DNA of 64,000 bases, from contig NZ_JARHTQ010000027.1 of NCBI RefSeq assembly GCF_029223525.1, positions 1-64,000 on the forward strand. Direction: 5' to 3'. Positions 41,002 to 45,073 of the stretch are shown here, one piece after another (the first letter of the stretch is position 1; every line of letters starts with the position of its first letter). Below the pieces are notes generated by a model. That model was not told the DNA's origin, made no database searches, and worked only from the letters and a program-made list of their open reading frames with translations. This stretch comes from Streptantibioticus ferralitis (lineage in GTDB: Bacteria; Actinomycetota; Actinomycetes; Streptomycetales; Streptomycetaceae). A program made the translations under genes and the position numbers.

Positions 41002-42017
41002 GCCGCTTCCTCCGTTACGTGCTCGCTCAGCTGGCCCGCCGCGATCTCCAGGAACGCCTCTTCGAGCGAGGCGGACCGGGCGTCGAGGCCGTCGAGTACG
41101 AGGTCCTTGTCCCGTGCCCACAGCAGTAGTTCGGTGAGCGCGTCCTGCAGCCGCAGGGTGCGGATCTCCACCCGGCGGCCGGTCACCGCGGCCGGTACGG
41201 ACAGCGGCAGTTCGGCCGGTGCGATGTGCTCCGGCAGTTGGAACCGGATGTGCGCCGGGCGCGCCGCCGTGACCTCGGCAGGGGTGCCGGACACCACGAT
41301 GCGGCCCGCCTGCATGATCGCCAGCCGGTCGGCGAGCGCCTCCGCCTCGTCCAGGTAGTGCGTGGTGAGCACGATGGTGGTGCCCTGCTCCCGGAGCCGC
41401 CGCACCAATTCCCAGGTCTCCCGCCGCACTTCGGCGTCCAGACCGGTGGTCGGCTCGTCGAGGAACACCAACTCGGGGTTGCCGAGCAGGGCCAACGCCA
41501 GGTCGAGACGGCGCCGCTCGCCACCGGACAGCTGCTTGACCCGCACCGCGCCGCGCGCCGTGAGGCCCACCATCTCCAGGGCCTCGCCGACCGGCCGGGC
41601 GCCGGTCGTACACCCGGCCCACATGCGTGCCGTCTCCATCACCGTCAGCTCGGAGGGGAAGCCGCCCTCCTGCAGCATGACGCCGATCCGCGACCGGACG
41701 GCGGCGCGGTCCCGGTACGGGTCGTGGCCCAGCACCCGCACCTGGCCGCCGGTAGGCGCGGCCAGTCCCTCCAGGACTTCAACGGTGGAGGTCTTGCCCG
41801 CGCCGTTGGTGCCCAGCAGGGCGAACAGTTCGCCCCGTGCGACGGTGAACGAGATGCCGCGCACGGCTTCGAAGCCCGGTGCGTTCTTCGCGCCCGGCGC
41901 GTTCTTGGCGTCCGTGGCGCGTTTGGCGGCCTTGGCGCCGGGCGGGCCGTAGCGGCGCCGTAGTGCGGTGACCTCGATCACATGCCGGTCAGTGTCCGTG
42001 TCCCTCTCGGTGTGCAT
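40998..42017 (-). CDS. ABC transporter ATP-binding protein
   Basis: 339 residues with Walker A GTNGAGKTS, signature LSGGERRRLDLALAL, Walker B LVFLDEPTTGLDAE and switch His in LTTHYLDEAEAL; an accessory C-terminal domain follows. Unusual is a low-complexity Ala/Lys/Pro insertion (about residues 25-48, with two copies of KNAPG) splitting the first beta strands of the nucleotide-binding domain. Co-translated with the permease. Four genes (ATPase, permease, kinase, regulator) form a classic self-regulated exporter module. Confidence 0.93.
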   Translation of the reverse strand: MHTERDTDTDRHVIEVTALRRRYGPPGAKAAKRATDAKNAPGAKNAPGFEAVRGISFTVARGELFALLGTNGAGKTSTVEVLEGLAAPTGGQVRVLGHDPYRDRAAVRSRIGVMLQEGGFPSELTVMETARMWAGCTTGARPVGEALEMVGLTARGAVRVKQLSGGERRRLDLALALLGNPELVFLDEPTTGLDAEVRRETWELVRRLREQGTTIVLTTHYLDEAEALADRLAIMQAGRIVVSGTPAEVTAARPAHIRFQLPEHIAPAELPLSVPAAVTGRRVEIRTLRLQDALTELLLWARDKDLVLDGLDARSASLEEAFLEIAAGQLSEHVTEEAA

Positions 42018-42110
42018 GTCCCAAGGGTTCCGCCGACGCGGGCCGGTGAACGGTGCACGGTGTCATCAGTGCCGATGACATTTGTCATCGAGGCATCGAG
42101 GGGACAGCAA

Positions 42111-42150
42111 AAGAAAGGGACCTGCTCCGGAAGGAGCAGGTCCCTTTCTT
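42111..42150 (-). terminator. Terminator of the tRNA-Gly(TCC)-Gly(GCC) unit
   Basis: Perfect 18-bp inverted repeat (42111-42128 and 42133-42150) with a GGAA loop, 2 bp beyond the tRNA-Gly(GCC) 3' end on the minus strand. Because it is symmetric, it could also stop plus-strand transcription. Confidence 0.9.
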
Positions 42151-42152
42151 GC

Positions 42153-42228
42153 TGGAGCGGACGACGAGGCTCGAACTCGCGACCTCAACCTTGGCAAGGT
42201 TGCGCTCTACCAACTGAGCTACGTCCGC
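42153..42228 (-). tRNA. tRNA-Gly (anticodon GCC), copy 2, CCA encoded
   Basis: Identical over all 76 bases to the copy at 38231-38306, with the same orientation. It lies 77 bp downstream (minus strand) of tRNA-Gly(TCC) and is probably co-transcribed with it. Confidence 0.96.
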
Positions 42229-42305
42229 AGGTTGCATCCGAGCGGCTTTCACCGCCCGGCGCGCTGACTACTCTACCTGATCGAATAGACCAGGAGGGCC
42301 GTCGG

Positions 42306-42377
42306 AGCGGGTGACAGGAATCGCACACTGCGCCTCCCCTTTGGAAAAGGGGCGCTCTACTACTGAGCTACACCCGC
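42306..42377 (-). tRNA. tRNA-Gly (anticodon TCC)
   Basis: On the minus strand: GCGGGTGTAGCTCAGTAGTA start, anticodon arm CCCCTTTTCCAAAGGGG with loop TTTCCAA (anticodon TCC), TPsiC loop GATTCCT-type and acceptor CACCCGC. The 3' CCA is not encoded. It reads GGA codons, complementing the GCC isoacceptor next to it. Confidence 0.92.
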
Positions 42378-42521
42378 GCGGTTCGGTGACTCGGCCTTTC
42401 GGCCTCGCCCCCGGCGCGCTTCAGACTTTAGCTGATCACCAGGGGTGCCTGTCCAATCGGCGCCCCAACTCCCCGTCCCCCAGGCCCTCATGGGTCCTAT
42501 GCCCCACTCTGTCCGGCCCTG

Positions 42522-43391
42522 GGTTCGGGGCGCGTTTGCCCCAGGAGAGCCGCACCCCTGCGCGGGACCGGGGTTCCACCCCAAGAAACCCGCACCCTGC
42601 GGAGGGCCGGGCCATGCCCCCGAGAAAACGCCGCCCCTCCACAGCGGGGGCGGGTGCGTGCGCCCCAAGAAAGTCGCGGCCCCGGTGGAGAGCCGGACCG
42701 CGCCCCGAGGAAAGCGCCCTTGTGAAGGTCTGGGGTGAGGCCCGCGAGAAAGCCCCCAGCCCGCAGCGGACCGGAGGCGCGCCCCCAGGAAAGCGTTGTC
42801 TCTTCCGTGGTGGGCCGGGGTGCGCCCCGAGAAACCGTTGTCTCTTCCGCGGTGGGGCGGGGGTGCGCCCCCAGGAAAGCGTTGTCTCTTCCGTGTGGGG
42901 CGGGGGTGCGCCCCCAGGAAAGCGCTTTCTCTTCCGCGCCGAGGCGGGGTGCGCCCCCAAGAGACCGTTGTCTCCTCCGAGCTGGGGCGGGGGCGTGCGC
43001 CCCAGGAAAGCGTCGTCTCCTCCGAGCTGGGGCCGGGGCGCGCGCCCAAGAAACCGTTGTCTCCTCTGCACTGGGCCGGGGTGCACCCCCGAGAAACTGT
43101 TGTCTCTTCCGCGCGTGGCCGGGGCGCGCCCCCAGGAAACCGTTGTCTCCTCCGAGCTGGGGCTGGGGGCGCATGCCCCAGAAAGCCGCGCCCCGGTGGA
43201 GGGCCGGGAGCGTGCCCCAAGAAAGTCGCGCCGCCGCGGAGTGCCGGGGGCGCGTCCCGAACAAAGAGCCCCGTGGGGTCTGGGGGCGAAGCCCCCGGGA
43301 AAGCCCCATGCCCGCAGGGGGCCGGGGGCATGCCCCCAGAAAGAGCCGCCCGCAGCGGGGGGGCTGGGGGCGAAGCCCCCAGAAAAGAACC
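42522..43391. repeat. Tandem array of 21 degenerate ~42-bp hairpin repeats
   Basis: Each unit is a G-run/C-run palindrome (for example GGGGGTGCGCCCCC at 42902-42915) followed by ARGAAA and a ~20-bp linker. The ARGAAA motifs fall at about 42543, 42583, 42622, 42667, 42708, 42746, 42787, 42829, 42873, 42916, 42959, 43004, 43048, 43091, 43134, 43179, 43219, 43260, 43297, 43338 and 43381, a spacing of 38-45 bp averaging 41.9. Units 7-15 share a linker close to CGTTGTCTCYTCCG; units 16-21 carry different linkers. The spacing is not a fixed multiple of three, so the long open frames across it on both strands are artefacts. It fills the spacer between lsr2 and tRNA-Gly(TCC). Confidence 0.9.
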
Positions 43392-43416
43392 CCTTACCTA
43401 TCCGCAGAGGAATCGT

Positions 43417-43734
43417 TTAGCGTGCGGCGTCGAACGCCTCGTACACCTTCTTGGGAATCCGCCCCCGCGGCGGCACATCGAAACCGTGCGACCGTGCCCA
43501 GGCCCGCACCGCCGCCGGGTCCGGAGCGACCGAGGTGCGCTTGTATGCCTTGCCCGAGCGGCTGCGGCGGCGGCCGGCCTTCAGGTAGGGCGTCAACGCA
43601 TCGCGGAGCTTGTCCGCATTCGCGGCGGAGAGGTCGATCTCGTAAGTCTTGCCGTCAAGGCCGAACGCGACCGTTTCCTCTGCTTCGCCGCCGTCGATGT
43701 CGTCGGAGAGGGTGACCACCACGCGCTGCGCCAT
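43417..43734 (-). CDS. Lsr2-family nucleoid-associated protein (LsrL-like paralogue)
   Basis: 105 residues. An N-terminal dimerisation domain (MAQRVVVTLSDDIDGGEAEETVAFGLDGKTYEIDLS) is followed by a basic linker and a C-terminal DNA-binding domain ending in an AT-hook-like PPRGRIPKKVYEAF. Lsr2 is the actinobacterial H-NS analogue that silences AT-rich DNA. Position next to purS matches the second Streptomyces Lsr2 (LsrL) rather than the main copy, from memory of S. coelicolor. AAAGGA lies upstream of the ATG. The repeat array begins 26 bp past its stop. Confidence 0.92.
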   Translation of the reverse strand: MAQRVVVTLSDDIDGGEAEETVAFGLDGKTYEIDLSAANADKLRDALTPYLKAGRRRSRSGKAYKRTSVAPDPAAVRAWARSHGFDVPPRGRIPKKVYEAFDAAR

Positions 43735-44100
43735 GGATATCGGTCCTTTCGTGCGGCAACGGCTGCACGGGTACGTATCGGTACCTATGTCGTCCGCCCT
43801 GACGTGCGGAGATGTGCCGTAGCCGACTGGTCGGGGTCAATGCGTTTTGATTTGCACAAGGGACGGTATTACGAGCGGAAGCTGTGGCATATTTCCCTGC
43901 CCCATCGCACCGCAATCGGGACCATACGGTTTTCCTTGCGTTTTCCACAGAGGTTACCCCGGTCGATGCCTAACCGTGATGGGGCAACCGGGATATCTAT
44001 GCGCGTAGATTTTCCGGACAGGTACGCTGAGAGCACTTCGGAGGTCGCCGCAGCCGCCGCCTTCGAGGTCACCTCACGCACCACACCACCGGGAGTGCAC
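43735..44100. other. 366-bp divergent spacer between lsr2 and purS
   Basis: No gene. It holds both promoters. A tandem 10-bp repeat (GGTACGTATC GGTACCTATG, 43770-43789) lies ~40 bp before the lsr2 start. A TACGCT -10-like box at 44023-44028 and GGGAG at 44091-44095 precede purS. The middle part is A+T-richer than its surroundings, a plausible target for Lsr2 autoregulation. Confidence 0.5.
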
Positions 44101-44346
44101 GTGGCACGCGTCGTAGTCGACGTCATGCTCAAGCCGGAGATCCTCGACCCCCAGGGCCAGGCGGTGCAGCGCGCACTTCCTCGCCTGGGCTTCGAAGGGA
44201 TCTCGGACGTCCGCCAGGGCAAGCGATTTGAACTCGAAGTCGAGGGGCCGGTCGACGACGACGCCCTCGCCCGTATCCACAAGATCGCCGAGAGTTTTCT
44301 CGCCAACACCGTGATCGAGGACTTCACCGTGAGGGTCGACTCGTGA
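44101..44346 (+). CDS. purS: FGAM synthase subunit PurS
   Basis: 81 residues from GTG 44101, with GGGAG 5 nt upstream. PurS bridges PurL and PurQ in the three-protein formylglycinamidine ribonucleotide synthase. The sequence [39 protein letters not shown] and [11 protein letters not shown] is the complete family fold. A much longer in-frame ORF upstream runs through the repeat array and is spurious. The stop overlaps the purQ GTG (GTGA). Confidence 0.95.
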
Positions 44347-45073
44347 CAGCCCACCCGTCGCCCGCCACCACCCTCGACGGGGGCCTTTCGGGCCGCGGTA
44401 ACACTCGGATCGGAGTCGTCACCTTCCCCGGTTCGCTCGACGACCAGGACGCCCTGCGCGCGGTGAAGCTCGCCGGGGCCGAGCCGGTCTCGCTGTGGCA
44501 CCGCGACAAGGATCTGCGGCAGGTCGACGCGGTCGTGCTGCCGGGTGGTTTCTCCTACGGGGACTACCTGCGCTGCGGCGCCATCGCCCGCTTCTCGCCG
44601 ATCATGGAGATGATCATCGAGGGCGCCAAGCAGGGCCTGCCGGTTCTCGGTATCTGCAACGGATTCCAGATCCTGTGTGAATCCCATCTGCTGCCCGGTG
44701 CGTTGACCCGCAACGACCATCTGCACTTCATCTGCCGCGACCAGAAGCTGCGGATCGAGAACGCCTCGACCGCCTGGACCGCCGACTACCAGCAGGGCCA
44801 GGAGATCACCGTCCCGCTGAAGAACGGCGAGGGCGGCTACGTCGCAGACGAGCGCACCCTGGACATGCTGGAGGCCGAGGGCCGGGTGGTGGCCCGCTAC
44901 CTCGATCTGAACCCCAACGGCTCGCGCCGCGACATCGCGGGCATCACCAACGAGGCCGGAAACGTGGTCGGTCTGATGCCGCACCCCGAGCACGCGGTCG
45001 AGCCGCTGACCGGCCCGACGACCGAGGGCCTCGGATTCTTCACCTCGATCCTGAAGCAACTGGTGAAAGCGTA

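Follow-up and report, generated by a model that had tools for sequence, protein, structure and literature searches.

The window analysed here, a stretch of 64,000 nucleotides from Streptantibioticus ferralitis, carries a long array of short GC-rich hairpin repeats between an lsr2 paralogue and a tRNA-Gly gene. Read from the paralogue towards the tRNA, the features of this locus are as follows.

43417-43734, minus strand: lsrL, an open reading frame for an lsr2 paralogue of 105 aa (Pfam Lsr2, 101 bits; Lsr2_DNA-bd, 61 bits)
43364-43382, minus strand: first hairpin behind lsrL, with an 8-bp stem and a 3-nt loop, 34 nt past the stop codon, no U-tract
42501-43380, no strand assigned: the whole array of 21 units, from Tandem Repeats Finder (TRF) and an anchor pattern; the left edge of unit 1 was placed arbitrarily 42 bp before its tail
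43180-43380, no strand assigned: outer right units 17-21, mean identity 73%; units 19-21 are like hairpins dispersed in the genome
42787-43179, no strand assigned: core units 8-16 with the GTTGTCTCYTCC-type linker, mean identity 81%
42501-42786, no strand assigned: outer left units 1-7, degenerate, mean identity among themselves 65%
42425-42456, minus strand: promoter-like block of the tRNA genes (TTGGACA, 19 nt, TAAAGT), seen by eye and found in the relatives too
42306-42377, minus strand: tRNA-Gly(UCC), lying downstream of the array and unusual in its D- and T-loops (Rfam RF00005, 56.5 bits; missed by ARAGORN)

The two Pfam domains bear out the identification of the flanking gene as an lsr2 paralogue, which a first-pass annotation of this DNA had made by inspection. 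That annotation had named a tRNA-Gly as the other flank, which holds with the precision that the nearest one is the tRNA-Gly(UCC) recognised by Rfam; tRNA-Gly(GCC), at 42153-42228, lies beyond it as seen from the array. These two tRNAs are the confident Rfam matches within 41900-44100. The promoter-like reading of TTGGACA and TAAAGT follows the promoter consensus, and a promoter scan of the region reported none at this putative tRNA promoter. Behind tRNA-Gly(GCC), a strong hairpin at 42107-42151 is followed by TTTT on the minus strand and probably terminates the tRNA genes; here Rfam returned nothing more than scattered sub-threshold matches.

The array is real and far above chance. A 21-unit tandem array had been proposed at 42522-43391, with tandem-repeat analysis as a way to check it, and TRF recovered the array without prompting, as rows at 42771-43186 (period 175, score 507, the best of the array), 42771-43172 (period 43, 9.3 copies, score 423) and 43167-43252 (period 40, 2.2 copies, score 107). 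When the dinucleotides of 42501-43400 were shuffled 200 times, no TRF row with a period of at least 25 and a score of at least 50 appeared. The units were counted with an anchor, a regular expression for a C-run followed by an ARGAAA-like tail, which was composed after the sequence had been read and which alone defines units 1-6 and 19-21, outside the TRF rows. TRF and the anchor count together confirm the 21 units, at the slightly corrected position of 42501-43380; the proposed mean spacing of 41.9 bp (SD 2.5) stands, and its range of 38-45 bp becomes 37-46 bp with the anchor. Each unit is built of a G-run, a short variable middle, a C-run and a purine tail, the array as a whole is 73% G+C, and it lies in the gap that separates the lsrL end from the tRNA-Gly(UCC) promoter block. 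The array is an intergenic tandem repeat, composed of head-to-tail copies in non-coding DNA.

The units are not equally alike. As the first reading had supposed, the centre is more uniform, at 81% identity compared with 65-73% for the outer units. The shared central linker is also there, although the motif near GTTGTCTCYTCC is present in units 8-16 (nine of 21), one unit off the 7-15 first given. Between groups, identity is 66% for left and core, 68% for right and core, and 68% for left and right, compared with 57% for shuffled units; unit 5 is closest to unit 17 (85%) and unit 7 to unit 20 (79%). The core contains a 175-bp higher-order repeat block. A resemblance of the right-hand units to dispersed hairpins, suggested at first, is supported by matches to hairpins elsewhere in the same genome, the best other match having an E-value of 4.9e-5 when 40 of the 114 first-look candidates were scored.

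Three genomes of the genus were compared, one per species: the array-bearing genome (G000) and two relatives (G001 and G002). In both relatives the two flanks align at 83-94% and the array is missing, the distance from promoter block to lsrL being 128 and 288 bp as against 965 bp in G000; G001 retains a single similar hairpin 5 nt behind lsrL. The copy number of the array thus varies between lineages, down to absence from the same site. In 394 Streptomycetaceae genomes, drawn evenly from a larger group and with two first-look candidates scored in each, only G000 matched at E of at most 1e-6, so that no homologous array was found in the other 393. A plasmid collection gave no match at 1e-5. Likewise, TRF (period at least 25, at least 2.5 copies) found no hairpin array in the lsrL-tRNA gap of any of 80 lsrL loci; L001 and G001, apparently one genome, were counted once. 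One of these gaps, in Streptomyces sp. AJS327 (L074, 5318-6418), has been enlarged separately and is 1.1 kb long and GC-rich, with 15 hairpins by a stem finder and no tandem row.

Tests for function came out negative. Since the mean spacing is close to four turns of B-DNA, the palindromes had been expected to sit on the same helix face, but the 21 anchor-defined units show no phase at 10.5 bp (resultant 0.06, p about 0.92). Over five periods tried the lowest p was 0.096, at 10.75 bp, and randomly drawn spacings did as well as the best period in the 10-11 bp range (p 0.50). Helical phasing, it appears, should not be read from a mean spacing near 42 bp. Covariation in the stems was assessed by swapping 3' arms between units, because a MAFFT alignment of the units misplaces some hairpins; with hairpins delimited by eye, the swapped ones were equally stable (P 0.66 on the plus strand, 0.17 in the lsrL sense). 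The first-pass annotation had held that loss of the spacing in close relatives, or palindromes without covariation, would point to neutral expansion of a dispersed repeat. The array is missing in both relatives and arm swapping shows no covariation.

We therefore think it probable that a dispersed GC-rich hairpin repeat expanded in tandem in this lineage to give the array, near-neutrally and with a possible incidental terminator effect. This reading rests on the well-aligned flanks of relatives that lack the array and the single match among 394 genomes; on a uniform core set within diverged outer units, its 175-bp repeat and the turnover of other arrays described below; and on the lack of phasing, of stem covariation and of a conserved lsrL 3' hairpin. 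Counting against it are the RNA folds and terminator-like sites considered next, and the state of G001, where no more than two of the five array sites are clearly empty. Near-neutrality is the most likely character of the expansion, and nothing shows the number of units to be under selection. The repeat would have grown by replication slippage or by unequal recombination between neighbouring copies. In the simplest history, an array would have formed first and become degenerate, after which one unit would have been re-amplified into the nine-unit core, and the array may persist because the intergenic gap tolerates changes in length. If lsrL transcripts enter the array, its first hairpins may act as a terminator lacking a U-tract or as a barrier to exonucleases.

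A selected device in the lsrL 3' UTR is an alternative that we regard as unlikely. According to it, a cluster of hairpins without U-tracts ends transcription, shields the lsrL mRNA and keeps readthrough off the tRNA-Gly promoter. The first hairpin, close behind the lsrL stop, is suitably placed, and RNA folding of both strands beats 20 of 20 shuffles (z -2.65 and -2.28), although a hairpin repeat gives such folding even without selection. The initial view that the hairpins are not ordinary U-tract terminators is supported, and the main G-run/C-run hairpins do lack a T-tract on either strand; in the lsrL sense, however, the tails read TTTC, and a terminator scan gave five weak terminator-like sites, all lsrL-sense and in linker hairpins, compared with 1.7 (SD 1.2) in shuffles. 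In addition, a crude gene caller that covers 66% of the DNA puts the density of GC hairpins at 0.36/kb between convergent genes and 0.31/kb between tandem ones, but at 0.12/kb between divergent ones, a distribution in line with 3'-end hairpins.

There is also precedent for such ends. U-lacking structured ends make up 353 of 1,427 mapped transcript ends in S. clavuligerus (PMC8269248), clusters of hairpins are proposed as transcription terminators (PMC8355165), and short palindromic 3' UTR transcripts of S. coelicolor and E. coli are taken as likely decay intermediates (PMC4681348). The array resembles the HS-U-lack ends or I-shaped terminators (PMC8269248) and the hairpin-cluster terminators (PMC8355165) in having GC stems without a U-tract, several in a row, within 50-80 nt behind the stop. 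It differs from them in its 21 copies in register and in its wider spacing, the main hairpins being mostly 25-34 nt apart. The distance of 34 nt from stop codon to 8-bp stem falls within the roughly 80 nt of such clusters, but their spacing of less than 15 nt is exceeded by the perfect-stem hairpins of the core, 24-34 nt apart where neighbours are listed.

Against a selected device stand the absence of the array from both relatives, the lack of covariation, and the consideration that a single hairpin would suffice. Moreover, with the promoter boundary set by a regular expression, a GC hairpin lies near the lsrL end in 26 of 80 related loci as compared with 25.7 in mononucleotide shuffles, which is no enrichment, and in many of these loci just 5-40 nt separate lsrL from the promoter block. 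A conserved lsrL 3' hairpin was accordingly rejected, and the early suggestion of RNA hairpins in the lsrL 3' region survives as a possible by-product of the array, not as a feature conserved at the locus.

The expansion at lsrL has counterparts elsewhere. A TRF filter on 1.26 Mb of G000 passed 11 rows, four of which, the window array included, were judged by eye to be GC-hairpin arrays. The others, with a looser array, are:

C22:371542-371889: GC-hairpin array (TRF and eye)
C22:45308-45624: GC-hairpin array (TRF and eye)
C66:301399-301550: GC-hairpin array (TRF and eye)
C22:429212-429475: looser GC-hairpin array (hairpin clustering)

A similarity search added two further G000 arrays, in L103 and L104. 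Linkers are unrelated from array to array, and the periods that TRF assigned lie between about 27 and 94 bp. The relatives were examined for five arrays (the window array, both C22 TRF arrays, C66 and L104). G002 lacks each of the five or has just one unit of it, and at the L104 site the gap additionally lacks further DNA that sits on another contig. G001 clearly lacks the window array and C22:371542, its C66 site holds other, longer DNA (268 bp versus 134), and two of the five sites could not be judged, owing to a contig break or to one flank only; G001 has arrays of its own elsewhere (L210, L211, L215). From these lookups in three genomes, hairpin arrays turn over between species of the genus.

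Counts of the hairpin core point both ways. GGGGC-N3-GCCCC occurs at 46 sites in 1.26 Mb compared with about 14.5 expected from the control GGGGC-N3-CCCCG, an excess that depends on this one control pattern because GGCGG-N3-CCGCC is commoner still than the hairpin core (134 versus 92, both-strand counts). In 26 of the 46 sites the loop is GCA, GGA or GAA on one strand. Against an excess, G-run hairpins at large are fewer (114) than local shuffles give (157). Mini-hairpins of the d(GCGNAGC) type are known for their great stability, which would favour slippage. With this in mind, one may speculate, at rather long odds, that in this genus GC hairpins, many with GNA-type loops, keep amplifying locally and, with no recognisable Y1 transposase, build arrays whose linkers are unrelated. 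On this tentative account they would be a self-templating repeat system: single-strand hairpins of very high stability would promote slippage and go on rebuilding intergenic DNA and the 3' ends of genes.

Bacterial genomes hold other repeats with which the array may be compared. The REP/BIME elements of enterobacteria are palindromes scattered over intergenic DNA and also grouped in tandem, as the hairpins here seem to be, and an element of this type, spread and multiplied by a RAYT transposase, would account for both dispersal and local clustering. Its transposase was not found: Y1_Tnp (PF01797) was detected in none of the three genus genomes, while the control search was positive in E. coli and in five of 14 controls overall. 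The linkers, moreover, differ among arrays. A REP system with a RAYT was rejected on these grounds and is highly improbable. VNTR/MIRU-type loci, the intergenic tandem repeats of bacteria, are similar in consisting of short, head-to-tail, non-coding units between genes that vary among lineages; they differ in that each unit of our array carries a GC hairpin, that the right-hand units are similar to hairpins found elsewhere in the genome, and that the comparison is across species. We found no account of such arrays in Streptomyces in the open-access papers searched.

Another early suggestion was a phased platform for protein binding, or a boundary element of the chromosome, to which the Lsr2 paralogue next door might bind; nothing was found for it beyond a mean spacing near four turns, and this reading is hardly credible given the missing phase, the relatives that have the same lsrL and no array, and a G+C of 73% where Lsr2 proteins prefer AT-rich DNA. 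A repeat-bearing gene, a structured RNA family or a CRISPR-like locus has next to no likelihood: long open frames do cross the array on both strands, but unit lengths are mixed modulo 3 and Pfam gives no match at 0.001 to either of the two longest, so a coding repeat was rejected; an Rfam RNA was rejected because all matches in the array fall below gathering scores; and the units, 65-81% alike with a core linker that repeats as well, are too degenerate for the near-identical repeats and unique spacers of a CRISPR, as had been said from the start.

The array looks like a repeat of a common type that expanded recently and locally, with no sign of a conserved function. It shows how fast short hairpin repeats can rebuild intergenic DNA at gene ends in a streptomycete.

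The tRNA-Gly(UCC) beside the array is unusual in its own right. Its D-loop is without GG (AGTAGTAG) and its T-loop has GTGC where TTC is usual; the T-arm motif was found in 79 of 80 lsrL loci. Apart from this gene, the same genome carries a canonical tRNA-Gly(UCC) at C15:175682. In Staphylococcus a non-proteinogenic tRNA-Gly serves the peptidoglycan bridge, which this tRNA recalls, and the peptidoglycan of Streptomyces likewise has a glycine bridge; a literature search for a peptidoglycan-type tRNA-Gly in Streptomyces returned nothing on the subject. In nine loci (L003, L005, L006, L008, L011, L025, L026, L032 and L044) the tRNA-Gly(UCC) is tandemly repeated behind lsrL, in 2.6-3.6 copies with a period of 117-128 bp.

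A different palindromic element lies nearby. At about 44349-44400, at the start of the purQ open reading frame, there is a copy of a dispersed element of some 50-57 bp that behaves somewhat like the Rickettsia palindromic elements, although a literature search for elements of that kind in actinobacteria returned nothing on the subject. The copy is present in G002, and the G001 alignment ends at 44346. In its own genome the element has 51 matches at E of at most 0.01, itself included; some copies seem by eye to lie inside coding DNA (L208, L213, L218), and others stand in runs, with six copies at C25:83401-83733 and three at C36:56900-57056.
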